A stretch of DNA of 64,000 bases from Larus michahellis (taxonomy: Eukaryota > Chordata > Aves > Charadriiformes > Laridae), in the NCBI RefSeq assembly GCF_964199755.1, contig NC_133901.1, positions 50,317,324 through 50,381,323 on the forward strand. The letters run 5' to 3'. Below, piece after piece: positions 9,752 through 39,500 of this stretch; position 1 is the stretch's first letter, and each line of letters starts with the position of its first letter. Under the pieces are notes generated by a model. That model ran no database searches. It had not been told where the DNA came from and saw only the letters and a list, made by a program, of their open reading frames with translations. The position numbers and the translations under genes were made by a program.

Positions 9752-10741
9752 ACTCTGCTGCCAGAAGGGGCTGCACAGACACTCACTTTGGATGGTGTAT
9801 CTCCCTAGCTGTTAGCTCCCGATGCCAGAAATCATCCTAAGTCACTCAGGGCCCAGAGTTTATGTATTCTGGACTTGACTCAGATTCTGTAGTGTTTCTC
9901 TTCCTCCTTGTAAATTTAGAAGCAAAATACAAGCCAGGTGAGGTGTAGTAGCTTGTAGCAAGGATGCCTGTAGTAAGAAAGAAATCTCTCTTATTTCCTC
10001 CATTGTGAACAACCCCCAGAGACACATGCGTGCAGATTTCTAAAGTAAAGTGGACAGACCTTCAGGGACTGTAGCTCATTTCCATCATGGACCGCAGGTC
10101 CTCCCCTGAAGTCTCCACAAAAACCTGGAAACTATTTCAGTCTTGGTTCAGCAAGGTGGAGCCATTCTGTAAGGAAAGTTTTGCAGAGAGCCTTCCCTTT
10201 GCAAGTGAGAGCACAAATAGTGAGCCATTTTTTCACCATTGATTTTGCTGTTTCCAGTTTTCTGAGTGCAAAGGGGAGGAATGGACTGTGCACCCATGTG
10301 AGGTGATCTCAAATTGCTGAAGTCCCTTTGTTGAAATCCCAAAGCAGCAGCATGTGTGATGGAAGGCCTGCAAACCTTTAGAAGAGTCTTTCCTTGTATT
10401 TTTCTTAAGCTTCCTGGAAGGATGACTGCTCAGCAAATCAACACCTTATTTTCAGCATGGGGTGAGAGAAGGAAGCTCTTTCTGCCGTGGTTACACTGGT
10501 GCAGTATGGAACGATTACACCTACCACAATTGTGCAGCCTAGCCAGGTTTTGGGGAGCATCTGCAGCCCTTAGGATCCTTCCTAGCTAAGCTCTTTGTCC
10601 CCCACTGCAGGTTATTGACACATCAGCAGGTCCCCATTGAATGAATGCTCTGTGATAAAGTGGTCAGAAGTGAGATCCCGAGAGGACCGAGCCGCTTCCC
10701 TCTTCTCCTGAGCTAACACCATCCTCCAGCACTGCTCGGAG
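9752..10741. other. Noncoding sequence, nothing recognised
   Basis: Between the CR1 copy and the second pentanucleotide tract I find no exon, RNA gene or repeat. Short reading frames are present on both strands but none resembles a protein family. Confidence 0.4.
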
Positions 10742-10839
10742 CTCTCCTCTCCTCTCCTCTCCTCTCCTCTCCTCTCCTCTCCTCTCCTCTCCTCTCCTCT
10801 CCTCTCCTCTCCTCTCCTCTCTCCTCTCCTCTCCTCTCC
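10742..10839 (+). repeat. (CTCCT)n pentanucleotide microsatellite
   Basis: About 15-16 near-perfect CTCCT units run from 10743 to 10820. After a single phase shift (loss of two bases of the unit), three to four more units run to 10839. The + strand is pure pyrimidine and the - strand reads (GGAGA)n, rich in GG doublets. The tract lies 1.25 kb upstream of the SYNPO2L terminal exon, in the same pyrimidine orientation as the (TTTTC)n tract 2 kb away. Confidence 0.97.
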
Positions 10840-12086
10840 CTTCAGCAGGCATAATTTTATACCTCTTTCTGGAGAATATCAGGGCTGGACAAGGTGCTAT
10901 ACAGTTTTTTTACAAATTATTAGATGCAGGCAGTGGATGAATGTTTCATCTGTACTATCATGCTGGGAAAAAGACAATGGGAGTACAGAAAAGGATGAAA
11001 TGAAAGAAGTAAGAAATTAGTCTATGGTTTGGGTATGTTCTTTTTTTGCTGTGCAAAGTTAGCGCTGATTTCTGTCACTTGGAACACTGATTCAAGGCAT
11101 GTCCATACCTTCCTTAGGGCAGCCGAGTTTCATTTTACTATTGCATCTCGTTCACCCTCTACTTTCCCAGGGCAGAGAACACAATGTTCCTCCCTGGGGC
11201 TTTACTGACCGCTGGTCTGGCAGAGCAGGTGGAAAATGATTATCCCACACTTTCATACCAGTGTCCCAACAGGTGTTGGCTTTTCCAAGCAAGCCTGCCT
11301 AAGTGGATTCCTTCTGGCCTGGGTGATCAGTTGTGGAGGTCTGGAATTCTTGCTCAGGAGCAAATGCTCTTCTTCTTTGCTGGGCATGGGGCACAGGCAA
11401 GGGACTGCAGCAAGGGTGAAAACATGTCTCCTGCTGTTGCAGGGTAGATGCAGAGAGGCGCAAACAGCTCTATACACAGTGCTGCTGCAAAACCCTCTGA
11501 CTCTGTAGCTGGCACTGCAGGGCCCAGAGCAGGAGCAGCCCGGCTGCGCCTGCAGGGCACCTCTCCCATTGCACACGTGCATGGGTGCTAAAGGTAGCAG
11601 GCTGCTTCCCAGACTCTCAGAGTCAGAGGGATTGCTTGCTCCTGGGAATCCTCCATATGGTAGGAGGAAGGTCTACAAAAAGCAGGGCTCCACCTTCAGG
11701 GTGATAAGTGGTAAAAATTCCTAGGAGCAAAGGCATGCACTGTAAAAATACTGTGGGAGCCTGGAACTCTTGGCCACATGCTGCAGAAATAGGAAATCTG
11801 AGGTCGGACCAGGAAACAGAGACCATCTGTCAGAGAGGAGGGAGTTCCCTCCCCACACCTGCATGGACTTCTAGTGTGTCTGTAGGAAAAGAGAAAACTG
11901 CACCTGGATTTCTATCAGCAGTTCCTAAAGACACTATCAGCAAAGGTAGGAAAGAAAAGGCAGGGCAGGGGGTAACAGGGTGTTTCCTCATATGGGCACT
12001 AGAATATCTATAGCCATGTCATTGTCCATCTTTGCCCACCCAGCCACTTGCTAAGCTGTGAGCTTGCCTCTTTTTGTCTCTTGCAG
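10840..12086 (+). other. SYNPO2L: 3' part of the intron preceding the SYNPO2L terminal exon
   Basis: No coding exon is recognised. The last 20 bases (12067-12086) form a strong 3' splice site: a continuous pyrimidine stretch 'cctctttttgtctcttgcag' ending in CAG at 12084-12086. Possible branch-point sequence 'ttgctaagc' lies about 35 bases upstream. Reading frames at 11184-11582 and 11708-12013 lack conserved features. Confidence 0.6.
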
Positions 12087-14422
12087 AGCTCCACCGCCAC
12101 GAGAGCATCCAAGAGAAGAACGTGAAAGAAGCCAAAACCAAGTGCAGAACCATTGCATCCCTGCTGACAGACGCACCCAACCCCCACTCCAAGGGAGTGC
12201 TGATGTTCAAGAAGCGCAGGCAGAGGGCTAAGAAGTATACATTGGTAAGCTTTGGGAGTGTTGACGAAGACCGCTCCTACGAGGAGGAAGACGGAATTTT
12301 TCCAACTAGTGAGTCTGAATTTGATGAGGAAGGTTTCTCTGATGCCCGAAGCCTAACTAATCACTTGGACTGGGACAACACTTACCTGGACATTGAAAAG
12401 GCCAAGTCTGACTCCGAACAGAAGGAAGAGAAGCAAAAAGGACTGAGTGAGGCCTCAGGTAAAGGAGCACGATTATTTGAGCAGCAGAGGGAACGGGCTG
12501 GGAAGTACACAGTCGAGAAAGTCCCAGCGCAGAAGAGCCCCCAGCTTCCCTCAGTTGCCCAGCCACAGCAGGGCACGGTGAACGGAGATATGCCTGTGCC
12601 ACAGAAGGTGGACAGCATGCCCCTCAGCATCCAGCTGGAAGGCGTGCAAGTGCCCAGCAAGCAGCCAGCCACCCTCCCCACCCAGCTCTTGGCTCCCCCT
12701 AGCCCCACTTTCTTCCCACCTCCCCCAAGCACTCCCGACCCCTTCTCTGCAAGCACAACGAGCATGTTCAACAGGTCTGCACGGCCCTTTACTCCTGGCT
12801 TTTCTGGACAACGCCCAGCAACATCCTCTGTCATCTTCAGGCCATCTGCACCGAAAAAACCTAGTGAAAGTCTGGGTGGGCAAAGCACGGTGGTTCCCCC
12901 TTTCTCACCTCTGGCTCCAGGAACACCTGCCAATGCACCAGTGTCAATGCACCGTGGTCCAGTCAGTTCCTCCACAACTCTCTATATTCCTGCACCAGGA
13001 AGACCAACACCACCACTGGAGTCACAGCCAAGAGAGGGAGGAAATGCTCCAGAGACTAAGCCTTCTGCCAACACTGCCCGGACATCCACCACCTCTATCT
13101 TTCTGTCAGCTCCCTCAAAGCCAGGAGGGGAGGTGGCCTCTGCAGCATCCCAGCCACGAGTCCCTGGAACAGCCTCTTCTTCATTGTATATTAGTCCAGC
13201 ACCATCACAGCACACAATAAGCAGTTCCCCTGCACCAAAGCAGCCTTCTCCTGCCATCTCGCCAGCAATGCCACGACCTCCTTCTGAGCCCTTAACCTCC
13301 AGGGAGCAGAGGATTGCCACGCCGGCTCCCCGCACAGGCATCCTGCAGGAGGCTCGCCGGCGGGGCAACAAGAAACCCATGTTCAGTAAGATTGAGGAGA
13401 AGAAGAAGAATTCACCCAACCCTGAGCTCCTGTCTCTGGTGCAGAACCTGGATGAGAAGCCAAAAGGTGACCACCCCGGGGCAGGCTTCGAATCTGGGCC
13501 TGAGGAGGACTTCCTCAGCCTGGGTGCTGAGGCTTGCAACTTCATGCAGTCCTCTGGCCGCAAGTTCAAGACCCCACCTCCGGTGGCTCCTAAGCCTCAG
13601 CAAGATGCTGGACTGGTGAATGGGGCCCAGGACATGCCTCAGCTTAAAGGCAAAGGAGCAGAGCTCTTTGCCAAACGCCAGAGCCGCATGGACAAATTTG
13701 TGGTGGAGACAACACCAAGGCCAGAGTCCAAGCCCAGGACCCCGTCTCCTTCTCCTTCTCTACCCTCATCCTGGAAATATTCACCCAACATCCGGGCTCC
13801 CCCTCCAATAGCTTACAACCCAATGCATTCCCCTTTCTATCCACTGGCAGCCAGCAAATCTCAGGCTAGCAAAGCAGAGAGCAAAGTGAAAAAGGCACCT
13901 GGCCAGAAATCAGGGATCAAGGTCATTGATTTAATGCGCCACCAGCCCTATCAATTAAAGTCAGCCATGTTCTGTTTTGGGGATCCCCCAAGCCCCAGCA
14001 TTCAGGATTCTCCTGGCCAGCCAGCCCCACAGGCTAGCTCGTCCTTCATGGCAGCCAAGCAGGTCCCCGTGAAAACAGCCAAGACCCAGGAGATACGTCG
14101 CTTCTCCACTCCAGCTCCCATGCCAGCTTCAAGCAGCCTGACACCCACCGTGCTTGTGCCCCGCTCAGCCACCACCTTGGATGAGCCAGTGTGGAGAACA
14201 GAAATGGCCTCTTCTGCCCCCACTACACCAGCACCCTTCCAGGCAGAGCTCAGCCAGTCCCCTAAGCCATACTTGAGCTCCCCAGAGCCCAGTCAAGTGG
14301 CCCAGGGGCCTTCCCCAAACCCAGCCTCGGCCACTCGGTTTCAGGTGGCCAGGCCCAAATTCTCAGCAGCGAGAACAGGGATGCAGGCCAATGTGTGGAG
14401 GCCAAGCTTTGGCCACCACTGA
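12087..14422 (+). CDS. SYNPO2L: SYNPO2L (synaptopodin 2-like) terminal coding exon
   Basis: Encodes the C-terminal 777 full codons plus two bases of a split codon of synaptopodin 2-like (CHAP), a striated-muscle Z-disc scaffold whose family binds actin, alpha-actinin and filamin C. Family blocks in order: E-A-K-T-K-C-R-T-I-A-S-L-L-T near 12128; K-G-V-L-M-F plus a basic KKRRQRAKK stretch (12191-12244); an acidic S-E-S-E-x-D-E-E segment (12311); K-G-A-R-L-F (12461-12517); a long Pro/Ser-rich region with F-N-R-S-A-R-P-F (12767-12790); R-T-G-I-L-Q-E-A-R-R-R (13331); S-L-G-A-E-A-C-N-F-M-Q (13517); K-G-A-E-L-F (13652-13708); A-P-P-P-I-A-Y-N-P (about 13796); R-H-Q-P-Y-Q-L-K-x-A-M-F-C-F (13937); and a C-terminal R-T-G-M-Q-A-N-V-W-R-P-S-F. 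It begins after the CAG acceptor at 12084-12086, in phase 1, so there is no start codon here. The human long form is about 977 residues, so roughly 200 N-terminal residues including a PDZ domain lie in unseen exons. SYNPO2 is excluded by the C-terminus and by the MYOZ1 neighbour. Confidence 0.95.
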
Positions 14423-14918
14423 GGCAGGCACCCCTCCCATCCCATTTGTGGCCCCGCAGAGATAGTGCTCGTTTTGTCTTTCATGTCAGCTCAGTACATT
14501 GGGATGAGTGACACAAAATGAAGAAAAGAGAAAAAAAAGAAATTATGCCCCTTCTGCACCACCCTCTCCCCCAGCCTCCCCCTGGTCTCAGATGGGCAGC
14601 TTCATAGCAAAGCTTACGGGCTGTGGCTACAGCAGGAGGAAGAATGTGGAGAGAGGGCACATGTGCAGTACACAGACACTGGGAACTTACACGTGGCAGC
14701 AAAATCCACCTCTGGAGGGGGTGAATGGCAGAGGTTGTCTCAAATGAGGACATGTCGGCGGTAGTGGTTTTCCTTTCCCAAGGGCTTTGGAGTCACCCCT
14801 GAATGGAGGGAGACTGGGGGGCAAGAGCTTTCCAGGAAGAAAGGGTCAGTGGTGGGATTACAATACAGAAGCCCTAGCTTCCCCATTAGACTGCTTTTCT
14901 CTGAGCCTGTCAGTCTGT

Positions 14919-14957
14919 ACACACGCACGTGTGTGCACACACACACACACACACAGA
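14919..14957 (+). repeat. (CA)n dinucleotide microsatellite
   Basis: An imperfect ACACGCACGTGTGTGC segment leads into a pure run of about ten CA units (about 14936-14956). The GTGTG interruption makes the first half self-complementary. It sits in the putative SYNPO2L 3' UTR. Confidence 0.9.
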
Positions 14958-17900
14958 GCAACGCGCAGCAGGGAGCGAAAGCGGGGCTTCATCTTGGACA
15001 CTTCTCCCAGACTCCCCTCCACAGGGGCATGGGAAAGGAGGCGAGAGAGCAGAGTGAGCAGGGCTGTTTGTGCATGTACGTGTGGGCAGTGTGCCCTGCA
15101 CAGGAGGGTGGCCATGTGTGCCCGTCCCTCCAGTCACCTGGGCTGGGATTAAAAGGGAAAGTCATCCTAGCTGGTGCTAAACGTGGCTATCAGGTCTGTG
15201 AGCAGTTTGCCAGAGTGGTGTCGAATTGACTTGATGGGCCTATCACAAGCTGGAGGAACCACAGAAGGAAGCATCAATTTTTGAGGATAGACAAAACTAG
15301 GCTCAGGCAGTGGCTGGCTGGCACAAGGAAGGCCCTGAAGCATTAGTCCCACTGGAAAAGGACACAGATGCTGTAAGTACAAAGGAGGATTGCGTGGGAG
15401 AAGGTACAGTTGACTTTAAAAGGAGACAGGATTGAATATGCATTTGCACATCATCTTTTTGTTCAGTTTAGGACAGACGCGTGGCTAGGTTGGAAATGGG
15501 TCATGACATTTGCTGAAAACTCTGTAATGAGCTGGAAAACGGAGACCCTTTACAGACGCTCTCAGTATGGAAGTGGAGGACAGGGAAACAGAAAGTCACA
15601 AGTAGAATTTCATACTAAATGATTTAAGTATCCTTGGGGTCTATTTGGTAAGAACTGAAGTGCTCTAAGAGTCCCAGAGGATCTGCACTCACATACACAT
15701 ACAGAGCTCAGTTTCCTGGCGATGCTGGGGAAACAGGACTGGTTATTCCTTGAATGTGCCTGGGTAGCCTCAGACTTAATCCCTACACTAAAGACATACA
15801 AGAAGAAAGCATTCCCTTTCCAAAGAAAGAATTCAGAATATTAGTAGGGACTGTGCAGGTGTGTGTGCATGTCATCTGTGCTCTGATCTGCACACCCCCC
15901 TGTGATTTGCTTTCCAACTGCGCTCCCCCTTTTGCAGCAGCCACTTTTACAGTGTGATCCCACAAGTACCCCAAGAAAAGCAGTGCTCCTGAAGCACTGG
16001 CTCACAAACACAGCGGATGCCCCAGCTGCAGGGAAGGGGTTTGCCACCTCTTCCTGGGCAGGGGTTGCCCAGCCTTTTGCTAGACCCTCAAAAATAAGTA
16101 CTGGAGGCAGGATGAGGGTCTCCTAGCCCTGCTTGAGACATGTCTCCATCTCATTAGACTTGCTCCTCTCCTTCAAGCAGAAGCTGTCCTCTGACTGGAC
16201 TGAGCACAAACTTTGGCTCTACAAAACTGTAGGTTCTGGGGGGAAAAAATGGTGTGCACATGGGGCTGATGCCAAGTCTATAAGCAGTGCAGCTAGTGTG
16301 GTTTCACACTAAGTCCAAGCCAACCTTCCTCCGCACAGCTGGAGCTTACCACGTGTAGCTCTTTTCACAAAAGCTGGGGACTCTACTTTTTCTTGGAGGC
16401 TCTAAAGTGCTTCTCTGTGAGCCTCTGGAGATTTTGCATGTGTGCTCTCCCACAAAGAAAAAGAGGCCTGGAGAACCTAGTTAGCAGCTCTAGTCCCAGA
16501 CAAACTTGGGAGGGAGATAATGAGAGAAACGGAAAAGTAATATACAATCCTGCCTTGAATCCTTCACACTCATCTGGGCTTGTTCTGCAGGCCTGTGTTT
16601 GCAGTGCACAGTCCTGGGAGCCCTGAAACATAGGATGAGCATGCTGGGGAGGGAGGAGGACAGCACTTACACCTCACTTAGCAGACTATCAGCCATGGGA
16701 GAGGATGGAAAGAAAATCTTTGGAAATGCGTTTGAGTTAATGATCAAAGGGGTGCCTGAGCCAGAAGAGGTGCTGCACCTGGTTGTATGACATAGGAGCA
16801 GCCAACCTGAACTGATGAGGTGATTGTATGTGTTCCTGGAAAGCCCAAGAGGGGAGGTCTTAGGACAAGTCACCACCACAGAGTTAATTCAGATCACCAG
16901 AATCCACTTAGGTCTGGTGAAGAGGAGCAGCCATGCTACAAAACCTAACTTGGACGACTGCTTTCTCACTCATCCTGTACTACATTGTATTGCTGGCATT
17001 TCCAGAAAAAAATCCTGTGTGCTGTGACAAGCTGAATCTCTGTGATTCTTCCCAAACATGGAAGGAGGAGTCTTCTATTTTTCTAGGAAAGCTGTGGGAA
17101 GGAACTCATGGACTAGCAGTGCTCCAAAAGCTTCATCTCTAGTCTCCTTGTGGAGTGCTGTCTGTCACTAGCTAGTGGTTTTAGCCACTAGCCTTAGACA
17201 GACAAGCTAGCCCAGGCTGAAAGCATCAGTGAACTCAGGTGCAGAGAGGGGTTGTGTGGACCAGAGAAAGGGTGCTCAAGATAATTCTGCAGTGAAGAAA
17301 TAACCTCAGAAAGTCTGAATCTCACTGCAGTGTCCCTTTCCCTCAGGCCCCTAAAGGTAAGTGCTCTCAGGGCCTGAGTATCTTGGGAAATTCATTTTGC
17401 CACTGGAAAAAAAGACAGGTCTGTCCTTAGCATGTAGGGGAGGTTGCATGTGGTTAGTATTTCAGTGGTCCCACTCCAGATTTCTGGGAGGCACTGATGC
17501 AAGCCAAGGACTGATGGCCAAACACTGTTGAATGTTAGATGTCAGGACCCACATGAGTGGAATAACTGCATTTGGCCCATCATTTCTGATAATGTAATGG
17601 GCAGGAGATTAAAAAGAGGTTAGGTCCGATTGGAGAACAAATATTAAACATCAGAGCAAGGAAAAGAACCAGGAGGCTGGGGATCCTGCATTTCACTTCT
17701 AACATCCTTGGTTCAAAGCTGTGTTTAAAAGAAAAGCCAAAGTAGTTTGATGGATCTCAGCCCCCTCAATCTTTTCTGGATCCTATGCTGACACAGGACT
17801 TGATCTGCAGAAGCAGAGGGTGTTGCAGATGAGGCCTACAGTGCTTGTGGAGTATCCCAAATAGGGCCTGTGGCTGTAATTCTATGAAGTAGCATGAAAT

Positions 17901-18716
17901 GAGAAGTAATACTGAGATGCATTTGCTAAGCTACAAGGAAGAAACCTGCACTACTGCTGGCTTCAAGCAGCTCTGCTAGCGTCTGCTCATGAAATATTGT
18001 GGGTCGCCTATTGAAAGGTCACAGGTGAGGTTATAAGAAATACTTTTGAATCATATAAGCTTGTCTTGAGGCTCTCCAAATTTCTAATTCCTCAGCTGTT
18101 GAACAAGCACAGACATAAACAGTTGTTTGACAAGTTTTAGCTCCCACCTGCTGAGTTATAAGCTTCAGTGATAGGCCAACCCCAGTGTCCCCTTGTTAAG
18201 CATTTGAAGATGTCTGCATGGGCTGTGATTTAAAACTGCCTGTCATCCCTCCTCTCTAGCACGCTGCAGGTTACACATTGCAGCTATGGCAATTCTGGGG
18301 GGTTATCTTTGCTTCAGAATATCAGCCCTTTCCCTCAGAATATATGGGAAACACTTGCCAGAGATAACTTCAAGATCCTGCAGCAGCTGAGAGGAAGAAT
18401 CTTGGAAGAGACTGGTGTGATGAGGAGTCACTGATCGCCAGACATGAGCACACTGCAAGCAAGAACTGTCCCTTTGAAAGAATATGCTCCTTTTCTGCTA
18501 TAATATCCAGCATCCCCTAACAGACACTCTTCCTAGAAGAGACTCGTCAGTGCTCTGAAAATGGGAGCCCAGCAGCAGTGCTCTGTCTGGTGGAAGATGT
18601 GACCCCAGACAGAGAACAGATTTGGCATCTTTGTTTATGGAAATACTTTTTTTCATTCTCTGTTTTGTCTTTTTTCTTCCCCATTTACAGTCACTTTCTA
18701 TTTGTTTGTGCAGAAG

Positions 18717-18722
18717 AATAAA
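18717..18722 (+). terminator. SYNPO2L: Candidate SYNPO2L polyadenylation signal AATAAA
   Basis: AATAAA sits in a T-rich context ('tttgtttgtgcagaagaataaa') and is followed within 30-50 bases by TG/T-rich sequence ('gtggcattttgtcacc'), the usual arrangement for a cleavage site near 18740. It is the first canonical hexamer downstream of the stop codon. Confidence 0.45.
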
Positions 18723-18740
18723 CTTGTGATATGCACTTTA

Positions 18741-21700
18741 CATGTGGCATTTTGTCACCTTCTTTGCTTGGCACCCAGAAGTAACTAACTGCTATGTGTA
18801 CAGACATGCAGTTAGCACTACCGACAAACTACTAAGGCCAACAGAATATAAGGAGTCCAAAAAAGGATGGGATGTCTCAGCAATAAAAACACATAAGTTG
18901 GACTTAAAACCCCTATAAAAAAGCCCCATGCAAGCAAAAACTTAACTGAGATCCAAAATTTTGGTACTACAGGCTATAAAACACTCACTGACAGAGTGAA
19001 GAAATTTCTTTATGGGCCACCCCCAGCTGGCCGCCCCGGTGCTGCCCCTCAGCCTGCTCTAATCTAAACCCTACTCTCCGCTTGTAAATCTGGTATCAAC
19101 AGAAGTTTGTCAGCCCTGGTAAATCCAAATATAAACTCATATGGAACAATTCAACTTAATAGTAACCAAGAGATCAGAAAACCAAATCAGTCAGAAAATC
19201 AAATATATCCCATTGCATCCTCAGGCTCCAAGCCTAATCCTAACTCTAACCCTATTCATGTTAAAGTCTACCCAATTTCTGGGTCCTGAGAGGTTCATTG
19301 TGCTCAGTTTAGGACAAGTGATGGCAGGTTGCCTTTCCAAGATGTGTGTCACTCACAGACAGCAATTCCTGAGTGCTGCAGGAGATGCTGAGGTCAGCTG
19401 TAGGATTGGACTACAGACTCTGGACACTTGTCCAGATATCATTTTGTAGATGTTTTTCAGATTAATTACAAGGATGCGTCCCTTATGCAGGGGTCTGGAG
19501 GTGAGTCTTGGGACTATCCAGCATATTTCTGATTGACCCGTGGACAGGAAATGCACAAAGGGGCAGCGATGTTTGCTGATGCCAAACCTGATCTTCTGTC
19601 CAACCAGAAGCACAGCTTCCAAAGAAATAAGTCTACAGATGCACAGGCTGCAGATTAGGACTGCATCTTGTTTTGCTTAATAAAGCTGACATAGTAGGAT
19701 TATGAGCTACTCCAGATGGTTTGACACATTGCAGGACAGTTGCTGTGTCCAGGGCTCTGATTAAATTCCCTGTTAACCTCTACAGCCTTCTCAAGTGAGA
19801 GTCATTTCTTCTCACAGCAGATCATGTCAGAAGGAGCCAGACAAAGAGACTTTCAAAAGTGGAACAGAAGGCGGCCCTGAGGTTACCGGCCCAAGGCAAA
19901 GCCGAAGGATTACTGAAACAGCTATGCAGCAGGCTAGGGATGAACATGGACTTCAGTGCACTACTCAGAGTGTAATTTAAAACCAGAAAATAGTAAGGTG
20001 CCTAGTGGGGATGTCCACCCCCAAACAATCATACCCGATGGAAGAAGTGTCCAGCAAAGAGCACAGCAGGGCGAGTATGTTGTGGCATGTAGGAGAATAA
20101 AGGTATTCCCAGGGAGTATAGACCTATAGCTTCAACGGCCACTAGATGTTGCCACTGTTCTTCTGTGAGTTACCTGGGGTTTTGGCATTCGCCTGACGTG
20201 GTGTTAAGTCTGGAGGCTTTAAAATTTTAGGAAATCCTTTCTTCCTAATCTATCCTGTTTTGGCGGTCACATATGGTATTGCTCAGTCCCACATACCGGA
20301 GGAGAAGGCCAGCCTCATACCAAGGAGTTTTGGCAGCGAGAGGCTTGCTGCAGCTTGGAGGGGATTCCTGGGTGGTAGCATGTGGGGCACGCAGGCAAAC
20401 AGGCTGCCCAGCAAGTAACACACCATGGGTACGCCAGTTATTTCAACACATACTCCAGCTCTGTGATCAAATACTGCATATTTCTGTCCCAGTCCTACAT
20501 CTCATCGTGCATTAAGCCCACTTAATGGCAAGAGGGAGCCTGGCATTAAGTGTTTTTCCTGTTGTGGTGCGGTGCTAGAAACTATTGACAAGTCTTCCTG
20601 ATGTCTGTGTAAAAGTGGAAGAGATTAAGCACATATGAAATATTATAAAATAACAAGTATTGTATATGATGTATTTCAAAATAAAAAAGAACCAGGAAAA
20701 AAAAAGCAACTTATTTTCAGAACAGATTGAATCATGTTGAAATCTGCTGCAGCACAGATCAGTCCTCCGGTCCAGGGGAAACGGAGAGCAGGTTCAAGGT
20801 CTAATTCTCTATCTTTGGAAAATTAAAATGGCGAAGGCTATTTGCCAGACTGATGCTGTTTGCCAGACCTCCACATGATCAAAATGTGCTCAGGAGACAG
20901 CCCTGCTGACGACACCTGTCTTAACTACTGCTTATGTCCATCTAGCACTGTGTAATGAGGCAGATCTCATCTGCTGCTCTTAAAATGATTTTGCAGACAT
21001 CAATAATTTCAAGTTAGACCATTTGAAATTAGGTGTACAAGAATGCAGCACAAAAATAAATTAATTTTCAAGATACAAGTCAGAGAAAGCAAAGCTTTGT
21101 GCAGGTTGTTCCTAAGGCCACTTAAGCAAAGGGTATATTTGGAAAGAGGGAGGTGGTCACAGTGAGATACAGACAGTTCCTTGTATGATTAAAAACTCCT
21201 CCCTGAAGTGCTGAAATGCCCTACAGGCAGCACATGTACTATCCCACTGACCTAAGTGGGAACTCCATGTAGTCAAGCAAAGATTGAATTTAGCCTCCAA
21301 ACCTCACCACGTTCCAGGTAAATCCCACCCTCCCACCAAACCAAAACTAAAACAGCTCATCAAGCAAGGCATGTAATGATTTAAAACCTTGAGCACTGAG
21401 TAGCATAAGTAGGTAAGACTACAGTAAGAGCCCTACATAACTTCTTATGTATGCTGAGTTCATTGTATCACTTATGGCAGAGATATCGGATTGGTATAAT
21501 ATTCCTAGCAGAAAAAGCCACTGAGCTGCTGAACTTGGCACCACGGCAGGGCACAAGTGAGGTCTCTGCTAGACCCACCACTGACATTTCTAGACTGGTG
21601 AACTAGATACTTCTGTCTCTCAGGAGAAACTGTGCATACAGAGGAAAAAGGGGCAGGATTTAGTTCTCAGCCTGGTAAACAAAAATTGAGACATATAATT

Positions 21701-24700
21701 TTATTTGAAGGTAAGAGTAGGAAGTGAGAATCTCAGTTAAAGATGTGCCCTGGTGCATTAAGTGTCAGACGCAAGGCTGCTTTACCCAAATCGCCCTATA
21801 AATCCTGGTGCCATACTAGTAGGATAAACCCTGTCTTACATTCCTTCTGGGTTCAAGGCTCAGGCTCTGTGCAGTACACTCCAGCTGCACTCTTAGCTCC
21901 TGTGTCTCACTCGTTGTATGTATATAGGCACATGCAGATGAAAATAACCTCTGGAGGATCATGGCTGCAAGAACAGAATGGGACTTCACATAGCACTGAA
22001 TGAAGGCTGTGGATCATCCTTCAAAGTGGAGGTGGCCAACGTCTCTTCAGAATTTGAGCCTGATGACAGCCACAGACAACAGCACTGAAAAACCTGGGCA
22101 AGAGGCTGGTCGAAACCTTGGATTTTGCTACTGGAGTTTCTGAGGAGGCCGACAATTGGCCTAGGAATCTAAATACTACTCACCAGCATCTAGGGAATAA
22201 AGGAATCTCCCCATTTGATCATTTCAGCTTCTAGATAATATTTCTGAGCCCTGGGTAAAGATCCTACCCTGTACTCTCTACTCCTAGCTTACTTTCCGTC
22301 ATATGCCTGCTCAACTTGTCTTATTACCAGTTCCTCACTACCCTGTCTACTTCTCACACAAGACCTTGACTTGGCGTACAAATGGTTTGTTCCCATCAGA
22401 CCACAGTTCCCATCAGTCCTTGAAGCTGGACCTCAAGGTCCTTGGCTTTCTCCCTAACCCTACTTGCCTCTTGCCCTTTGGGCTGGGGATTCATGGTGGA
22501 GTCTCGTCTCTTGGAGTTGGCCCACCCTGAGTTGCTGTCACTGCCGTGTTTCTGATCCCTAATTGCTGGGCATGCCTGCTCATAACCTGACTGAGATCCA
22601 TACACACCATTCCAGTCATGCCTTCTCATCTTCTCCTTGCTACTGCTTTTCCCTAGTCTCTCTTGAGTTTTATAAGAAGGTTCACATCCATTTCCTGTTC
22701 ATTACCTCCAATTACCAGCTAGCCATGGGGCACTCCCCTCCCTTCCAGCCTGCTCAGCTCCTCTCTCCCTGCAGCTGCCTGATCGAGCAGATGTGAACCT
22801 CTAGGGTGGGAGGAAGCAGAGGAGCAGCAGCTCATGCTCATGGCAAGGAAAAGCAACCACACACTTCCTTGCAACACCATCTTTTGGAGACACCTGGCAC
22901 AAATTGTTCCCCTAAGGTTTAATTTGTTCTCAGGAAGGCACAGGAGATGACTGGAGAAATAATACAGCAGCTATAAATTGGTCTGAAAACAGCTGCTGGA
23001 AGCAAGTAGAGAGGAGGCAGAGTTTAGCATCACCCTAGTGACTGCAGGAAGGTGCCGTATAGTGGTAGGTGCATTTCTCAGCTTCTCACCCCATAACATA
23101 TATCACATTAATTTCTTAGATGATTATCAAAATGGAGACAGGAACTTCTTAAAATTAAGAGGTAGCTGTACCTCATGCCTTTGGGAAAGGAGAGGCAAAG
23201 GGCTGCTGATTTTAAGCAATATAGCAGCACACTGTGTCTGTTCTCTCTATGCCTCCCCCTACAAGTCATCACCTTGTGACAGACAATAGCTCCCTTAATA
23301 AATAGAGTTTAGAATGGAGAGAACTTGAACAGGAGAGCAGCATCTCAAAGAACACAACTGGGCTTCACAGTAGGTACTGGGCACTCTGGGAAAATTCCCA
23401 ACATGGTGCTAAACCAATCCAAAAGAAATAAATGTGGTGAAAAAATACTCCTCATTGTACAACCTGCAGTGAGCAGGGCTTGGCCAACACCAAGAGACAT
23501 GCTCCTCTGTGGCCACCTGCACTTGTGCAGAGTGGGTGTGAAGCGTGGACAGATGGTCAGTTGTGAGAGTAGTATTTGACACCCTCCAGCTTTGTGCAGA
23601 TGTAAATGCTTTCACCAGGCGTGAAGCTCTGTGATGGTGCCCAGAGCAGGCAGTGGGTGTTTACAGTTCAATTGTGCTATCCCCTACACCTGCTTTACAC
23701 TGGCACAGCTCCGGGGAGAGACTCACAGATCACCGGCATGGGAGTGCGGGGGCAGGATCCAGGCTGTCCAGCCCTCGTGCATCATTCTGTTGTGTCTGCT
23801 GGGCTCAGTGAAGGACGCGGCACTCTCTTGGATAGTGGACAGCCTACAGCACTGTGCTACAGTAGATACAAATGAGGGAGAATAAGAGCACAATAAGAAT
23901 TGTGCTATAGGCACATAGTGGTTATATGGATGCAAGCAAGAGGAAAATGGGAAACTTTAGGCCAGGAGATTGCCATACATGCCCTGACTCCAAGCTTGAT
24001 TATTGCCCATAGGTACATTACAGCACTCTTATACAGGATCTTCTAAACAGTACTGGGGGTTAACACTTTCTGCTTTCAACCCACTTATCACACTGGGAAG
24101 TTTTATATGCATTTGGTGCAGGCAAAAACAACTTCAAAATCTAGGAAAAAGGGAAAGTGGCTGTCTCCTGATGTTCCTTTATATCAACTTTGCTTGCAAT
24201 TCTCTGTGCAGAGGATTTTCTATTACAATCACAGCTGTGTATTGGGGTTTTTTCCACACTAGACTCTAGGTTTATTCAGCGGACAACTCAATTTTGATCC
24301 AATGTAAAATAGGAATACAATGTTTTCTGCAGGATTTCTGCTTTACATAGAAGCTGAAATGTATGTGCATCTTTGATCAATCCAGTAAAATGAGATATGT
24401 TCCCTTCATCCTAGAACCAGAACCCAACTAGGTATGGGGGAAAAAACAGAGAGAATCACCCCATAATGAACAGGAGCTAGAGAGGGGGAGTCATTGGCAT
24501 GTACAAAGCTGCACCAAATGCAGGCAATCAACCCTATTTCTGTCATGAATCAGAAATTAGCTTCCTTGCTATTTGATTCCGATGGGTTTCCCACACACAT
24601 TACACAGCTACTTCCTAGAACTCTGTAAATAGCTTTCTAGACTTTGTGGTTTTCCTACTACTTCTCACTCATGCATACAATTCTTCTTCTTCTGTGCTTT

Positions 24701-25099
24701 CCGATGTATTATTTGAATGCCTGACATTTTAAGAATTATGTATGAGAGCCTAGAGGACACTGGGTTGAATGATGGAGTGAGGAGGGGGCAGAAGAAGGGT
24801 GTCAAACAGAGCAAGACCTGAGATAGCTTTTGAGACACTACTGACAAACAGGATATTGAGAAGGTTTTATGAATGTCATTAAAATGCAATCGAAAGAGGA
24901 AGGGGAACGACATGTTAATTTGAACAGAGAGGAGGAAGAAGTGAGGCACTTATGGAGTGCCTGGTCTTACTGGGAACTGAGGTAGTGACTGCAGGAGGCC
25001 TGAGGAGCAACCTTTTCTTTTCCCCTCTCCTTGGGGCTGGTGGCAGTGCTATCTGAGACTCTGCCCTCTGGGCCGTTGGCTATTAATAACCACAGGATG
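18741..25099. other. SYNPO2L-MYOZ1 intergenic region
   Basis: No exon, RNA gene or repeat was recognised in 6.3 kb. A degenerate telomere-like stretch (cctaatcctaactctaaccct, 19233-19253) is too short to count as an interstitial telomere. All reading frames are under 100 codons and resemble no family. Any MYOZ1 distal enhancer would be expected here, but I can point to none with confidence. Confidence 0.4.
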
Positions 25100-25314
25100 C
25101 CTGTGCGAGCAGCCTTCAGGGGTCAAATTCACAGCACTTCGCATCAGCACTTTGTGCTGGGCAGAGCTTGCCTGCGCCCAGGCACCCTGGGTGAGCGGGG
25201 CTGCGGGACGAGGCTCCCCAGCAGCGCCCAGAGACGGGCTGGGAGGAAGGAGCCCACTGCCGAGCTCTGGGGCAGGCGCGTGAGCTGGTCTGAGCCTGGC
25301 ACCGCAAGCCTGAG
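25100..25314 (+). promoter_or_regulatory. MYOZ1: CpG/GC-rich segment ending in a strong splice donor; candidate MYOZ1 noncoding exon 1
   Basis: About a dozen CpG dinucleotides occur in 215 bp, whereas flanking kilobases have very few. The segment ends exactly at TGAG|GTGAGT, with GT at 25315-25316, a full-consensus donor. The MYOZ1 start-codon exon needs an upstream noncoding exon, because it begins at an acceptor (AG 27450-27451), so this is a candidate first exon 2.1 kb upstream. A competing TATA/E-box candidate lies at 25921-25951. Confidence 0.35.
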
Positions 25315-27451
25315 GTGAGTTGACTGGGCAGCGAAATAGTTTAGAGTAGGTGCTGGAGAGGGTAAAGACTGGTTTGGTTTGCAGCAAAAACAAGGAAGTG
25401 ACTGCTGCAAAGATGGATGCAGAAAGACAGAGGAATTGCACCAAGGAACAGAGCTCAGGGGAGGAAAGGATAATTGTGGCCCTGGCTTTATGTACGGGAT
25501 AGTGGGGAGGATAGGGACTGAGGCTCCAGCAGCCTCCCTGTGGTGGGGTGGCTGGAAGAGCAGTAGTCCCAGTGTAGCTCTGGACCCTGTCCACAGTGAA
25601 AGACTGATGCCCCTTTCCTTAAGCCAGACCAATTGCACGCAGCGGGTTTTCCACTCCCCAATCCTGCTGGATTAATAAAGGAGGACAGCCGAATGGGATG
25701 GGCTTGCACCCACTGCTCCTTGGGAATGGGTGTGCTAGAAGAGCACGGTTGCCCACCAGGGCCAGCCCTTTCTGCCTTGCCCCAGGGAGTCCATGTTCGG
25801 GGCATACAAATGATTTCCCTCTGTTTTGCCAGTCTTATGACCCATTAGATGGGCCATAATGTCCCACCCCCCCTGCCTCCTGGCAACATTGCCCCTTTCC
25901 TGTCAAGCAGGGCCTGCTTCTTTTATATAGCCAAGCAGATGTCCATCTGCTCGAGGAGAATGTGAAGTGCGTGCTTTACGGCTGCACCTGCTCACGCTTG
26001 CTTTGGGAATACACCAGAATGGGCTCTTTTATCATGTCAACTACATAGGCAGCATCTCAATAAAGAGAAAAGCTTGGAAATCTGAAAGAAAAACTAATCC
26101 AAGAGAGTATCTGCCAATGTGATTGGAGCTGGTTTGCCATGGATGGGCTTCTTTTAGCAGTTATCATCACTTCATCATGTGAAAATCATGTTGCAAAAGG
26201 AGCAACAGTGGAATGAAACTGCAAAATACATAGGAGATAAAAATGTCTTGATCACAACAAGAGCAGTGTAGAAACTCCTAGAGCTAACTGTTTGCTTGCT
26301 AGTTTTAAAATATAACTCATAGTTCAATGTCTTTGGTTCTGAAATTTTAAGCAACTAAAGCGCAAAGAAGCACGAGGACAGAGATGGCTAGTTATTGATA
26401 TTGCTGAAACCAATGGGTCTTTGCCCATTTTATTTTGTATTGTATTGTATTAGGTGAGGCTGTGTGCCCCTATATGCTGTTGTTTGGGCATGGACAGTGT
26501 TGAAATGAAGGTAAGACATTTGCCCTACTTACATTATGTGTAATAACACCCAAGAAGGACGCTGAGAGGCTGCCTGAAGTGGAATTGCTGAGATTTCTCA
26601 TAATTTTCCCTGACTTGCAGTACAGATCTCTCATCCTATCTGGGGACAGAGATGGGGAACACTGTACCAGAAGAAATCTCCCTCTTCCCCTCCTTCCTCC
26701 TCCAAAATGATATGCAGTAAGATCAATACATAAGATACAGGTGCAAGTGACTTCAAACAGATTGGGCAAACAACTTTTCAATCAAGTTTGCCCGTGCCTT
26801 CTTCTTCCAGCCGTTCTGTAAGAAAATGGTAGCAGTTATAAATTAGCATTTTGTTTTGTTTCTTTTTTTTTTCAGAACATGCAGTCTAGTTGTTTTCTGA
26901 ATACCTATTCTATTTCTAATAGTACTATCTAAATATCCAAACCAAACTTGCATATTATTCAAAATTCTCCCAAATAACTCATGGACAGACCCAAAATCTT
27001 TATACAAAAATATATATTACCATCCAATGATAACTGCATGGTATTATAATATGGTATGATAGAGCAACTTTTCAAACTGACATTCTATTACTTCAGCACA
27101 AGATGATAACGGAGTACCACTGTGGCACACGTGGGTGCTGGGAGACTGCCATGTTGCAATTAAAATGCCTATTTTGGATGACAATACTGTATGGCACCTT
27201 GGCAACGGTCCTGCTGTGATCTGCTGCCATATTTTGTGCCATAATGCTAATTCTCCAGAGAACACCACAATGGCCTGCTGATAATATTTTGTATAGGATG
27301 ATACCATTCACTAACTCCTTCATGTGGAAGGGATAGAAAAGAACCTGTGTGTGAAATGAAGGCTGTGTATCTCTTAACTGTAGATGGCAATTAAAAAAGA
27401 GGCAAGAAATACCTTTCCAGTGTTTCATTCTCCATTTCCTTGTGTGTTTAG
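25315..27451 (+). other. MYOZ1: Probable MYOZ1 5' intron or proximal upstream sequence
   Basis: Contains the TATA/E-box cluster at 25921-25990 and an AAG|GTAAGA donor-like site at 26511. It ends in the acceptor 'tgtgtgtttag' with AG at 27450-27451. No coding sequence is recognised. Confidence 0.45.
25921..25951 (+). promoter_or_regulatory. MYOZ1: TATA-like box with paired inverted E-boxes; alternative MYOZ1 promoter
   Basis: TTTTATATAG (25921-25930) is followed by CAGATG (25936-25941) and CATCTG (25944-25949). The two E-boxes form an 8-bp inverted repeat with a 2-bp centre (25934-25951). A further E-box, CACCTG, lies at 25985-25990. E-boxes are bound by myogenic bHLH factors and MYOZ1 is a fast-muscle gene, so a TATA-type muscle promoter here is plausible. 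A strong donor AAG|GTAAGA (GT 26511-26512) could end an exon starting here. There is no transcript evidence. Confidence 0.3.
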
Positions 27452-27553
27452 AGCAAAGCAGAGAACCTTTTGTGGGAATGCCCCTTGCAGGGACTCCTGC
27501 TCCTGTTAAAAGGAAAAAGTCCACTAAACTCATTGGGAAGCTGACACACGAAG
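27452..27553 (+). CDS. MYOZ1: MYOZ1 coding exon 1 (5' UTR end plus start codon)
   Basis: Begins after AG at 27450-27451 and carries 26 nt of 5' UTR. The start is ATG at 27478-27480, chosen because the following M-P-L-x-G-T-P-A-P matches the conserved N-terminus of myozenin-1. It encodes residues 1-25 and the first base of codon 26, ending at the consensus donor GAAG|GTAAGA (GT 27554-27555). The segment is Lys-rich (V-K-R-K-K-S-T-K). The in-frame ATG at 27442 is upstream of the acceptor and so not used. Confidence 0.9.
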
Positions 27554-30500
27554 GTAAGATATGCAAAACTGCACATGTGAGAATTGCTTGGATTTCAACC
27601 TGGATTTCAGCCTTTAAAATTTCACACCCTGTCTGACTGAATTCCCAGAGCAAGACCACTAGGCAGAGGCACAAATATTACTAAAGCTGAGCCTTCAGCC
27701 ACATCACATTTTCTAATTTACTGTTCAAAAGCATTGCACGCACACTCAGGTCAAATGTTGACCTAGATAACACTTGGTAAACCCATATTCTCCTGCAGCA
27801 TTAATTTGGATTAATTCACCAGTGTGAATGGAAAGAGAACATGATCTTTTATGGGTATGAATATTGCAGTGCCTAGTTATATTCTATGTTGCGCTCTCTC
27901 ATATAACCTTTGTCTCTAATTTGCTTTTCCTCTGTGTGAAAGAACTCCTTTGATTCCGGCACTCATTAGTTGAAAAAGTCAAAGTCTCTTAGAGGTGGTA
28001 ATACAGCAGGAAGAATATAAATTGGGACACTTCTCTTTCTACAGAATACCTGTGTATTGGGTAGGGTGACTTTTAATTAACTCGGATATCCTTATCTTCA
28101 CTCTACTTTTGACAGCATGGGGAAGATTTTTAGAGGTTTCGAAAAGTAATAATTCAGTGCTGTCTCTTTCTTCAGCCCCCAAAAAGGGCTGTAGAAGCTT
28201 CTTTGTAGGATACAGGTATATATTTTTCTGTTTGTCCCTAATCCTTTATTCAAATAAACAAGTAAGTAAAAATCCAATTTTCAGTTAAAGAACATTTTCT
28301 CCTGTGCTATGAAATAGTACTATATAAAATTGGCTTGCTAAAAAAGCTAATAATTTCTTCAGAGAATGTCTAATAAAATGAATGGGCTTATACCAATTTT
28401 ATACTAGTTTAAGGATGGAGATTCATTCTCTGTTGTAAATGAGATGTAGAGATGGAGAAGTGGTCTTAACCTTGCTTAATACAAAAAAAGGAAGCCTAGC
28501 AAAAGTTGCTTAGTCGCTTGTTTCTGAATGAAATGCTTTAACTGCAGTTCTGCAAGATTTTTACACTGAAAATGTTTGAATCCATTGTTTTGATGGATAA
28601 TTGGTGGTATGAAATTAAATGGAAAAGGACTTATCGAGTAACTAGAGTATTAAGACTAGAAGAGAATGTCAAGTACTTTTCCCTTTAAAAATTCTTCTTA
28701 AAACAAACAAAAAAAATAATTGGTAACATTGAATCTTTCATGATTTAATGTTTAAACCGAAGCACAACAGAGTTGTCTTTATTTATTATATGTCAGCCCA
28801 ATTCCAAGAGCTGACGGCTACTCATCTAATTCCAGAGGAGGGGAGATGAGCATAGGGCAGCAACCAGACAAGGCAGTGGTGCATTTTGAGGCAGTAGTAA
28901 GGAATACTGCTGCACTGACTGAGGTGCTTTAGATGTGGGACACATGCATCTCGCTCCACCCTTATGCAACTCTTCTCTGCGGATTTGCCATGATCGAAAT
29001 CCAGAGTAAATTCCACTCATACATATCCAGAGCGTCATCAATGTAAAAATTTAGTGCATATGTTCTTTCATAAGAACTTAATTTAGAAGAGAATTTGGCT
29101 GCTTTGAAGTCATTACTGATGCTGGGAAGCAATGGACAAGAGCCTTGAACCAGAACACTTCCTAAAGTGTCGCATTTCATATGTTTTATAGTCATGCCAC
29201 AAGAGGTGTCCAAGCTGAACTTGGGGAAGAAGATCAGCATCCCCAGAGATGTCATGCTGGAAGAGCTTTCTCTCCTCACAAATAAAGGATCCAAGATGTT
29301 CAAATTACGTCAGCTCAGAGTGGAGAAGTTCATTTATGAGAACAACCCTGATGCCTTCACCGACAATTCTGTGGTAGGTCAGAGATTAAAACTGAAGAGC
29401 TGCTCCATACGCTCAGGGGAAACGGGAACTGAGTGTGCCCAAGCGCTCCTCTGTCTGTATGTGCATGAGCTTGGGAGAGGGTGGTGGGGATCTACTAGCA
29501 AAGAAGTGCAGGAGAAAGCCAAAATTATATAAACGCACAAGTTTTATTTCCTTTCAGCAGCAGCATTAGTTTCCTTTGGCAAATACTTGGTATCACACAG
29601 GCAGAAACATGAGAAAATTCAGTATCGAGTGATGGGGGAGGACTGTATGTTTGGCAGGTGTTCAGAGCTGTGCAGGGCAGGACTAATTGGTTTTGTACCT
29701 ATTTCATTTCTTCTTTGCAAGATGGAAATGATCCATCCAGGTGTGACTTCAGCTCCAGTAGGTGTGGTTCTATTTTTAGCCCAGGATACACTTTTATGCT
29801 TCTCGCCCGGCAAAGTCCTCTGTGCATTCTGCAAGAAGCTCCCTAAATGAAAATTCAGACAGAAACCTCTACCCTGACACTGCAATATCTTCAGTTTATT
29901 TGCTAGAAGCTACGTTTGTTTTCTTCTAATGTATTTTCCTATCAGAGATGGTGTATAAATTCAGACATTCTTTTTTTTTCATTTTCCCATGAGTTAGTAC
30001 TGTTATTTAATTTTTGAACTTCTCTCTACAGTTAAGTATTGGTGTAAAGTCTTCTGAAGATACTTAAACTTTTACAGATGAAACTGTCCTTTCGCATCAT
30101 TGTCAGCAGTTCAGTAAAACAAACAGAAAATGTTTCAGGTTCATATGCATTTTGATGTGGCATCTCGTCTTCTGATGTTCTTTAAAATTAATTTGGTGTC
30201 ATGTTATCCCTCAATGGCATCTATTTTCCAGTCCAAGGAAACTAAAGCAAAATAATAAAAGTCAAGCTGAAGAAAACGTTCTGCTAAACAAAAACATGCT
30301 GTTTTTTAGCCTTCTGATGTTTTCAAAAGCAGCAATAAGTAAAACTTTGTGGTTCACTTCTCAAAATGACAATGACAATTTGGAAAGCAGTATGTGGAAA
30401 GATCCCTGACAAAAAAAATGTCATCAAAATTACAACAGTAGGTCAGATTACAGATGAGGGATGACAGACCAGAGATACAGAAAGCAAATCCAGCATTGTT

Positions 30501-36500: not shown

Positions 36501-39500
36501 GCCTGGGCTGCAGCCTGGTGACCTGCTGTGAAACCCTGGACACTGTTGCTGGAGACACAGGGAGCAGAGGGTTAGATAATTCTGCCTTGAGCCTTGTGGG
36601 GTTTTCACTTCTCATCTATTTTTAGCTGACCGAACAGCTGGCCTTGGAAGCCTGTTTACAGCCTGGAAAGCTTCTTTTTGCTAAACTGTTCTAGGTGTAA
36701 GACCCCTGAGAAAGCCTTAACTCTTTGAGAGCCAGCGCTGAGGCTGGCACTCTTGTCTCCCATTGACCGCCTAAGATGAATTTATACAAGCAGAATTGCA
36801 GCATGAGGAACCACAGATTCATTCACTTCAGCCGTATTTGTTACATCTTTGTGCACCTATAGCCAATCCCCTGGTCCCAACAGGAAAGACCATGTGTGAT
36901 ATATAAACCAGGTAACTTGTATTATACAGTTGTGTGGGCTGTAATACACAAGAGATGATACATTTTTACATCTGGTAGGAGTCAAGCTTTGATCTCACTT
37001 ATGACCAATACATAAAACATTTTTCCAAACATATTTTATCGGTTTCTGTTCCACACAAGTATTTATTAAAATTGCTGTGTGCAAAGACAAGACCTTGTGC
37101 TGGCACCACAAGGTCTATAAATCCTGCACGGACTATTTGCTCTTTCACTGTGTACTGCAGGGATTGTGCCTTCTGGCCTTGACTGGGGAGAGTGGATGGC
37201 CTGGAAAATAAGACTAACTTGATTCTACTGATGGATACAGCTTGCTTTCTTGCCTTGCTGCTGGTTAGATTTGGTTTGTTAATGCACATATTGCAACAAA
37301 CAAAACCCTTCCTTTTTGTCATTTTCCTCTTGTGGTCTCCAGGAAGTCTTTCATGTTTTCCCAGGCTGCTATCGCTTCAGTCTTTCTCAATGTGTACATA
37401 CCCCTCCCCATACATACAGAAAAGAGACATAAAGGCAGTCATCTTCCATGTTTTTATGTTGTCACAGGTATCCTGTTGTTCTGGTGCCCTGTAACACTTA
37501 GCTCCCACACTCTAATTAAGCTGACTTTGTTGGGCTATCTTAACCTTGACATGAAACACTTCTATTTCTTGTCCAGCTTGCTTTCCCACAGGTTAGCCAA
37601 TGTATCTCTGTCTGGACCTTTACCTGCTCTGGCAAAAGCTGTATTTCCTTTCCCTTCCTCCTATATTTCATACTGATCACTGCTGGGGACAACACACAGA
37701 TCCCTCTCTTCTCACCCTGGTCATATAAAATGACTATGAGTTGTCCATGAAAAGGTGTGCTTCCATTGCCCTTGCTGCTGTTCTACGACTGCTCTATACT
37801 GAATATAGAGAATAACTCACACAAAGTTCTGCCACTGGTTTTGTAACTAAGACATAAAACTGGTCACATCACGGGGACTTGGGACCTTCTGGGGTTCTGG
37901 GACTCAATCCTGCAAATGTGAACGGACCATGTCCTGTAACAGGGATTCTTACTCTCTTTTCTCCTGCCCTAGGATCACTTTCAGAAGTTCATCCCACCAG
38001 GAGGGCATTACGGGGAAGATGCTGATAGCTATGCCCAGGGACGGATGGTAGGAGGAGTGACAGCTGGGCAGCATGGCGCCAGCAAGCAGCAGTATCCTGG
38101 TGCCCCTCCTAGGCCTGGAAGCAAAGGCGGCCCTGGGGACAGCAAAGGGGAGCATGCAGGGGAATTGGCTGGAAGTGGTGGAGAAGGAGGCGATGGTACT
38201 GACAAGGGCAAGTATCTCTGCAAGAACAAGAAATAGCTAAAGCTATCAGAGCTCGTGCCAACCTTACTCTTAGGGACAAATAAATTAATTTGACTAAAAC
38301 CTGAATTCTTCCAAACTAAGTTCCATTGCAAAGTCTAGAAAAACTTAAGTGCCTTCAGCTTGATAATTTTCTTTGCATGCTTCTGTGTTGCTCAATCATA
38401 GGTAAGAGCCAGAAATACCTGCCTTGGCTGGACCAAAGAAATGATGGGAAACTTAACTACTGAGCTCCTAAGGTTGATACGGCAGTGTGCCAGTATGGCA
38501 TTCCCTTGCCTTTCAAGGCTTTCACACTGACCACTACTGGAGACAGAAGTATTAGCTCTTTAGCTCAGTAGTCTGACCTGACACATCAGTCTTGAGTATA
38601 CCAGCCCTGATTTCAAATCAAAGTTTTCACCTAAACAAACAGCACTTTTTGGATAATCTTCAGAAAGGAACAGTGATATTTCTAAAAGTATCTGGTAATT
38701 ACCACCAGTCTAGTGAAGCAATATCTTTATGAGTAAAAGTATTTTTCATTGAACTTAGTCCTTGCTTAATTTTATCCTCTGTTTAGATTGGCCAGAAACT
38801 TCTAGAACCAAATCCCTTGTATGAAAATCATCAGGTGAAAGAGTTATTTTAACAGTCCCTATGTGATTTTACAACAAAAAGCAAATTTGGTTGGGAACCA
38901 GGAACTGCTGTTGTAAATTACCAAATGAGTGACTTGTAAAATCCAAGGCTTTTCGTTTACATTCTGGAAGAATGTGCACTTTATATCAAAATCAGTTTTT
39001 ACATTCATGGGCATCCCTGTGATAAAGAAATCTGTGTAGACTCTGTCTTCTTACAGGACATTTTTCTCCATTGTTATCCTATTTCTGTGTGCAGGGAGAA
39101 GGAGGATTAACATCATCCCATAGCTTTTACTGCAGAGGTGGATCCCAACTGCAGTTCTTCATCCTTTTATTCTTCAATCCTAGCAATCAATTTACTACTA
39201 AACTACTTAGTTTAAGTCCTTCACAGAGAAAGAGGGAGGCAGTTGTGGGTTTTTTTTAATGAAAATGAGATTCTTGTACATGTCTGCAATTCTTTGAAAC
39301 CAGGAAAGCCCAGGATTTGACAAGGTTTGAAGAAAATAAGCAAGACAACGAAAGAAGGTGTGATGAAAGTTTCAGATAATAGTGTTCATTCTTTGCCACT
39401 TACTTCATAAGGATTTATGTTTTCTACACAAACTATAGCACAATGAAAGCACTAAAATGTCTAAATCCATTAACCTATTATTCTCGTCTGCCCTAATCAA

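Follow-up and report, generated by a model that had tools for sequence, protein, structure and literature searches.

A calsarcin segment common to neighbouring synaptopodin-family and myozenin genes of Larus michahellis: probable descent from an ancient tandem duplication

Why two neighbouring genes of different muscle scaffold families carry the same short peptide motif is the question raised by the SYNPO2L-MYOZ1 locus of Larus michahellis. The window, i.e., the whole stretch of 64,000 nucleotides analyzed here, represents positions 50317324-50381323 of contig C10 in the 1.4 Gb genome of this species. In the initial annotation, four segments alignable without gaps, three in SYNPO2L and one in MYOZ1, were reported, and either an ancient tandem duplication or a convergent ligand was offered as explanation. 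Based on profile comparisons, genome-wide searches and gene order, the four segments are considered likely to be homologous copies of common descent, originating from an ancient tandem duplication before the vertebrate genome duplications. The first of the two options is favored by three same-strand, motif-sharing gene pairs belonging to one paralogon, and the convergent ligand is disfavored.

Translation of the window reproduced all four segments (Table 1; copy 1 had been given as 12191-12244). Translated in six frames, the window contains four matches to the pattern K-G-x-x-[LM]-F-x(5)-R-x-x-K-[YF], all of them inside the named exons (4/4); 50 mononucleotide shuffles of the window gave none. 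SYNPO2L copy 3 shares 9 of its 19 residues with MYOZ1, the count originally claimed. In a comparison of hidden Markov models (HMM), for which motif profiles were built from sequences of this genome only, the eight SYNPO-family copies matched the three MYOZ motifs with an hhalign probability of 96.6% and a score of 39.4, a value reached by none of 500 column shuffles. Moreover, when the three MYOZ motifs were scored against the exon proteins of SYNPO2L, SYNPO2 and SYNPO, the best score was reached by 0 of 300 composition shuffles for each protein. Both the HMM-HMM comparison and the shuffling had been put forward as checks of the similarity, which passed them.

Among the SYNPO copies, copy 3 is closest to the myozenins. 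Its hhalign score to MYOZ is 38.7, followed by copies 2 (29.3) and 1 (26.3), and the top three matches of the full-length hhalign comparison are copies 3, 2 and 1, with probabilities of 73.6, 11.2 and 9.9%, respectively. Mean ungapped BLOSUM62 scores amount to 51 for MYOZ to copy 3 (nine pairs, 44-56), 40 for MYOZ to copy 2 and 33 for MYOZ to copy 1. Since copy 1 to copy 3 likewise scores 33, copy 3 resembles MYOZ more than it does copy 1 from its own family. Judged by these sequence scores, copy 3 appears nearly as close to MYOZ as the MYOZ genes are to each other (mean of 58 in three pairs, 54-62).

The gene order of the locus recurs elsewhere in the genome. On contig C10, SYNPO2L is followed on the + strand by MYOZ1, with approximately 13 kb between the SYNPO2L stop and the first MYOZ1 coding exon found. 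The SYNPO2-MYOZ2 linkage cited in the initial annotation does exist on contig C9, where both genes are encoded on the - strand with their motif exons approximately 47 kb apart. Furthermore, a third pair that the initial annotation did not contain, SYNPO followed by MYOZ3, is located on the + strand of contig C15 at a distance of approximately 6 kb. In all three pairs (3/3), both genes share one strand, and the SYNPO-family gene comes first in the 5' to 3' direction. Gene names at these and the other genome-wide places were assigned from translations with the help of human gene linkage. CaMKII matches correspond to four loci (C9, C10, C15 and C24), three of which share contigs with SYNPO-MYOZ pairs, and the four NDST loci (two on C9, one each on C10 and C15) are all located on SYNPO-MYOZ contigs. 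As is characteristic of ohnologues, the paralogous pairs reside on chromosomes sharing other multi-member families. On contig C24, carrying the fourth CaMKII locus, no match to the Pfam family PF05556 (Calsarcin) was scored, as if a fourth SYNPO-MYOZ pair had been lost there. The three pairs and the sharing of CaMKII and NDST families give the picture expected of a SYNPO-MYOZ pair that predates the vertebrate genome duplications, with the fourth pair lost.

PF05556, which is named for the myozenins, matches the MYOZ1 model over its full length (330.8 bits, profile positions 1-255). In the SYNPO2L exon, it matches three stretches with a score (44.6 bits, E=1.7e-11) above the cut-off of 24 bits. 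Unlike in MYOZ1, the match in SYNPO genes is limited to profile positions ~49-114, and the best SYNPO2L stretch covers positions 52-100 of 255 rather than the whole profile, as in myozenins. In the genome-wide searches, which score first-look candidates only, PF05556 was found at 13 places, namely three each in MYOZ1, MYOZ2 and MYOZ3, two in SYNPO2L and one each in SYNPO2 and SYNPO; nine of the 13 exceed the cut-off, two of these only together with neighbors in frame. No scored candidate fell outside MYOZ and SYNPO-family genes. Since only first-look candidates were scored, absence of the motif elsewhere is valid at the sensitivity used. Searches with single sequences linked the two families in both directions. 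Using SYNPO2L copy 3 as query, all six places at E<=10 were in SYNPO-family genes or in MYOZ1, the latter being found at E=6.13. The MYOZ2 query returned MYOZ2, MYOZ1 and MYOZ3, then SYNPO2L copies 2 and 3 (E=1.85 and 2.35, ranks 4 and 5 of 6), and as sixth place a sequence on contig C2 containing a stop.

The view that the two families are normally treated as unrelated, expressed in the initial annotation, is out of date, since PF05556 matches both and PMC11753949 describes the similarity. In PMC11753949 (2024), residues 464-508 of mouse synaptopodin are described as a calsarcin domain with a helix resembling a myozenin helix, and the segment is reported in SYNPO2, SYNPO2L and fly CG1674. This domain corresponds to the same segment as SYNPO2L copy 3; the upstream copies 1 and 2 and the gene linkage are not mentioned in the excerpted text of that article. 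Furthermore, SYNPO2 (myopodin) possesses the N-terminal nuclear localisation signal 58-KKRRRRARK-66 (PMC10405370), which lies within copy 1 and reads KKRRQRARK in the SYNPO2 of this genome. In the excerpts of PMC10405370, the signal is not presented as a calsarcin copy. The full basic cluster of copy 1 is absent from the other copies, MYOZ2 coming nearest. A literature search, with most subscription papers outside its range, retrieved no proposal of a SYNPO-MYOZ tandem origin or of the multi-copy structure. Added here are the three same-strand SYNPO-MYOZ pairs on contigs with CaMKII and NDST paralogues, the proximity of copy 3 to MYOZ and the location of the SYNPO2 signal within copy 1.

Features outside the motif were also compared. 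The motif exon begins after a phase-1 intron in all six genes, approximately 26-35 codons upstream of the motif, which is weak evidence. The sequence FNR[ST]AxP[FY] is found 3' of the motif in MYOZ genes, and SYNPO genes carry it on the 3' side of copies 1 and 2; in MYOZ1, its counterpart is divided between exon 5 (up to 40721) and the last coding exon (from 41560 on). In an hhalign rest-versus-rest comparison, this block scored 26.8 versus a null maximum of 23.2 (0 of 400 shuffles), and in each of two targeted comparisons none of 300 shuffles reached the observed score, the SYNPO alignment having been anchored post hoc on the block in all cases. By its sequence, FNR[ST]AxP[FY] is a possible second element common to SYNPO and MYOZ and is treated as a lead only. 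Myozenin/FATZ proteins end in an acidic C-terminal PDZ ligand of the class E-[ST]-[DE]-[DE]-L, represented here by ETEEL (MYOZ1), ETEDL (MYOZ2) and ESDEL (MYOZ3). SYNPO2L ends in PSFGHH and, lacking the acidic PDZ ligand, is not a myozenin. The blocks TGILxE, PNPxLLxLV, HQPYQL and the VWxPS tail, picked as synaptopodin-family criteria from the alignment of this analysis itself, align in the large 3' exons of SYNPO2L, SYNPO2 and SYNPO; none of them was seen in the MYOZ models, those of MYOZ2 and MYOZ3 being partial.

Directly observed are the similarity of the segments, their confinement to six genes within the sensitivity of the searches, the head-to-tail order of all three pairs and the common paralogon, and the following course of events would account for them. 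Three copies of the segment are present in SYNPO2L and SYNPO2, two in SYNPO and one in each myozenin gene, and all would go back to one ancestral 'calsarcin' segment of approximately 20-25 residues. Before the two rounds of vertebrate genome duplication, all or part of a SYNPO-like gene would have been duplicated in tandem. Of the two resulting genes, the downstream one would have become the myozenin ancestor, keeping one segment, and the genome duplications would then have given rise to the three present pairs (SYNPO2L-MYOZ1, SYNPO2-MYOZ2 and SYNPO-MYOZ3). Tandem copying directly explains why the motif genes are linked pairs at three paralogous loci, for which convergence would need a separate explanation. 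A farther-reaching version, to which we assign about even chances, is that the whole myozenin (calsarcin/FATZ) family represents a truncated tandem copy of a synaptopodin-like gene (reported fly orthologue CG1674), made before the genome duplications. The N-terminal segment of the myozenins, the SYNPO repeats and the SYNPO2 signal would then all derive from one docking segment, and FNR[ST]AxP[FY], located inside the alpha-actinin-binding part of myozenin-1, would have been co-inherited.

Regarding function, it is tentatively proposed, at slightly less than even confidence, that the segment is a weak, basic docking site joining disordered scaffolds to the actin/alpha-actinin network, which in copy 1 of SYNPO2 also serves as nuclear localisation signal. 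The copies repeated in SYNPO would act jointly as several weak docking sites, of which the myozenins would retain one. By human numbering, residue S48 of MYOZ2 would fall within EELS, the block directly preceding the motif. Among hypertrophic cardiomyopathy variants, MYOZ2 S48P is given in PMC11070111. The net charge of the motif copies ranges from +2 to +8, and helicity of the segment is reported in PMC11753949. In the same study, deletion of the synaptopodin calsarcin domain abolished F-actin inclusions. No chain with the KGxxLF motif was found in searches of the Protein Data Bank (PDB), and the PDB profile search returned one unrelated match (E=4.3). The entries 7a8t, 7a8u and 7ank contain fragments of myozenin-1, the same protein as MYOZ1, and include FNRTAMPYGG, the MYOZ1 form of the possible second common element. 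Their MYOZ1 chains begin downstream of the KGxxLF motif, and the alpha-actinin contact of the FATZ-1 structures was consequently rejected for the motif. 7A8T represents a complex with alpha-actinin-2, and its disordered FATZ-1 segment lies on the alpha-actinin spectrin repeats, on the same surface as predicted for PDLIM linker regions (PMC10754285).

Several results weigh against common descent by tandem duplication and against the docking role. A tree of 23-residue motifs groups the three MYOZ together and leaves their joining point unresolved, six of its eight bootstrap values being 22-58 and the others 74 and 92. The counterpart of the MYOZ motif is ambiguous, since exon start and intron phase favor copy 1 and the sequence favors copy 3. 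Taken alone, the SYNPO2L copies stay below the 24-bit PF05556 cut-off (13.6, 17.4 and 20.9 bits), and a Calsarcin match was obtained in five of eight single SYNPO fragments, the best reaching 22.8 bits versus the cut-off of 24. The PF05556 genome search may be partly circular if the Pfam seed contains synaptopodins; the single-sequence searches are not circular. The cross-family matches of the latter are individually weak (the E-values of 1.85, 2.35 and 6.13 given above), and the copy 1 exon query reached genome-wide the three copies 1 and two strays and no MYOZ. One of these strays, on contig C1, contains a stop, and the other, on C13, reads, by eye, as the opposite strand of another coding frame. 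A homology between the MYOZ exon and the exon sequence preceding copy 1 was rejected, since hhalign aligns the motif only, and the unanchored comparison of the FNR block yielded only E=0.32; as judged from these alignments, homology beyond the motif is not established. As to the docking role, an EGFP fusion of the calsarcin domain was cytosolic, without anchoring to the endoplasmic reticulum on its own (PMC11753949), so that the segment alone is not a sufficient anchor. An amphipathic helix was not supported either, as 1930 of 5000 joint position shuffles gave a mean hydrophobic moment at least as high as that of the 11 motif copies.

The restriction of significant similarity to the motif, together with an exon layout and a C-terminus that differ between MYOZ and SYNPO, would also be compatible with a local transfer. 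In that event, only a short stretch bearing the segment would have been copied between otherwise unrelated neighboring genes before the genome duplications; the motif would still be of common descent, and MYOZ would not be a copy of SYNPO. This course is regarded as rather unlikely, given the downstream position of FNR[ST]AxP[FY] relative to the MYOZ motif and to SYNPO copies 1 and 2 and given the phase-1 intron approximately 26-35 codons upstream in 6/6 genes, neither of which is decisive. Short linear motifs are capable of converging, but an independent origin of the segment as a ligand of a common Z-disc protein, e.g., alpha-actinin or filamin C, is clearly improbable. SYNPO2 binds alpha-actinin and filamin (PMC10778272) and MYOZ1 binds alpha-actinin (PMC11070111), filamin binding of the latter being taken from a reference title. 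However, the genes in which the genome-wide searches detected the motif form linked pairs, located at three paralogous loci, instead of a broader assortment of alpha-actinin or filamin ligands. A convergent motif would be expected in several ligands of the same partner that are not related to each other; among the first-look candidates scored, the genome searches yielded, apart from SYNPO and MYOZ, three isolated weak places. Furthermore, the match comprises approximately 20 ungapped residues, copy 3 is on average closer to MYOZ than to copy 1, and the MYOZ1 fragments solved in the PDB lack the motif. Finally, chance resemblance of basic disordered sequence, for which the shortness and basic composition of the segment might speak, can be set aside almost entirely, being refuted at these sensitivities by the column and composition shuffles and by the concentration of genome-wide matches in six genes.

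Features of SYNPO2L and MYOZ1 within the window are compiled in Table 1.

Table 1. Coordinates of SYNPO2L and MYOZ1 exons, motif copies and a possible second common block in the window.
Feature	Position	Strand	Remarks
SYNPO2L large 3' coding exon	12087..14422	+	786-codon open frame; counterpart exons in SYNPO2 and SYNPO
Motif copy 1, SYNPO2L, KGVLMFKKRRQRAKKYTLV	12191..12247	+	SYNPO2 counterpart holds published nuclear localisation signal
Motif copy 2, SYNPO2L, KGARLFEQQRERAGKYTVE	12461..12517	+	also in SYNPO2
Possible second common block MFNRSARPF	12764..12790	+	FNR[ST]AxP[FY]
Motif copy 3, SYNPO2L, KGAELFAKRQSRMDKFVVE	13652..13708	+	corresponds to synaptopodin calsarcin domain; among SYNPO copies closest to MYOZ
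MYOZ1 first coding exon found (MPLAGTPAPVKRKKSTKLIGKLTHE)	27478..27553	+	
MYOZ1 motif exon, phase-1 acceptor, phase 0 at end	29192..29373	+	Pfam Calsarcin 109.3 bits for 29194-29373
MYOZ1 motif copy, KGSKMFKLRQLRVEKFIYE	29284..29340	+	
MYOZ1 exon 4	37973..38207	+	
MYOZ1 exon 5, end YKSFNR, split last codon	40562..40721	+	
MYOZ1 last coding exon	41560..41791	+	TAMPYGGYEKA, RPSFNRTPIPW, C-terminal ETEEL

The large SYNPO2L exon possesses a phase-1 acceptor at 12085-12086 and a stop at 14420-14422, and no upstream SYNPO2L exon (PDZ part) was recognized in the window by short-word searches. In SYNPO on contig C15, the loose pattern identifies copies 1 and 3 only, with no match for copy 2, and copy 1 ends in VDGLTG versus AKKYTL in SYNPO2L. 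The donor of MYOZ1 exon 4 at 38208 (gcaagt) is, by eye, of the GC-AG type. Seven other open frames of at least 120 codons in the window, plus five between or beside SYNPO2L and MYOZ1, matched no Pfam family at E<=0.01. Pentanucleotide arrays were observed 5' of the large SYNPO2L exon (TTCTT, 58.6 copies, 8693-8990; CTCTC, 19.2 copies, 10742-10839), as was, by eye, a CR1-like retroelement tail at window positions ~9440-9755 ending in ATTCTATGATTCTATGATT-type repeats.

SYNPO2L and MYOZ1 are located in a common atrial fibrillation locus (PMC11477451). Caution is advisable in transferring functions between copies, as copy 1 is a nuclear localisation signal in SYNPO2 and its sister copies probably act otherwise. 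If descent by tandem duplication is true, a function of the segment established in one protein, e.g., in the actin inclusions of synaptopodin, would give a direct prediction for the others. Moreover, the origin of the calcineurin-binding Z-disc myozenins would be explained, and two muscle scaffold families would be placed in one evolutionary and mechanistic frame.

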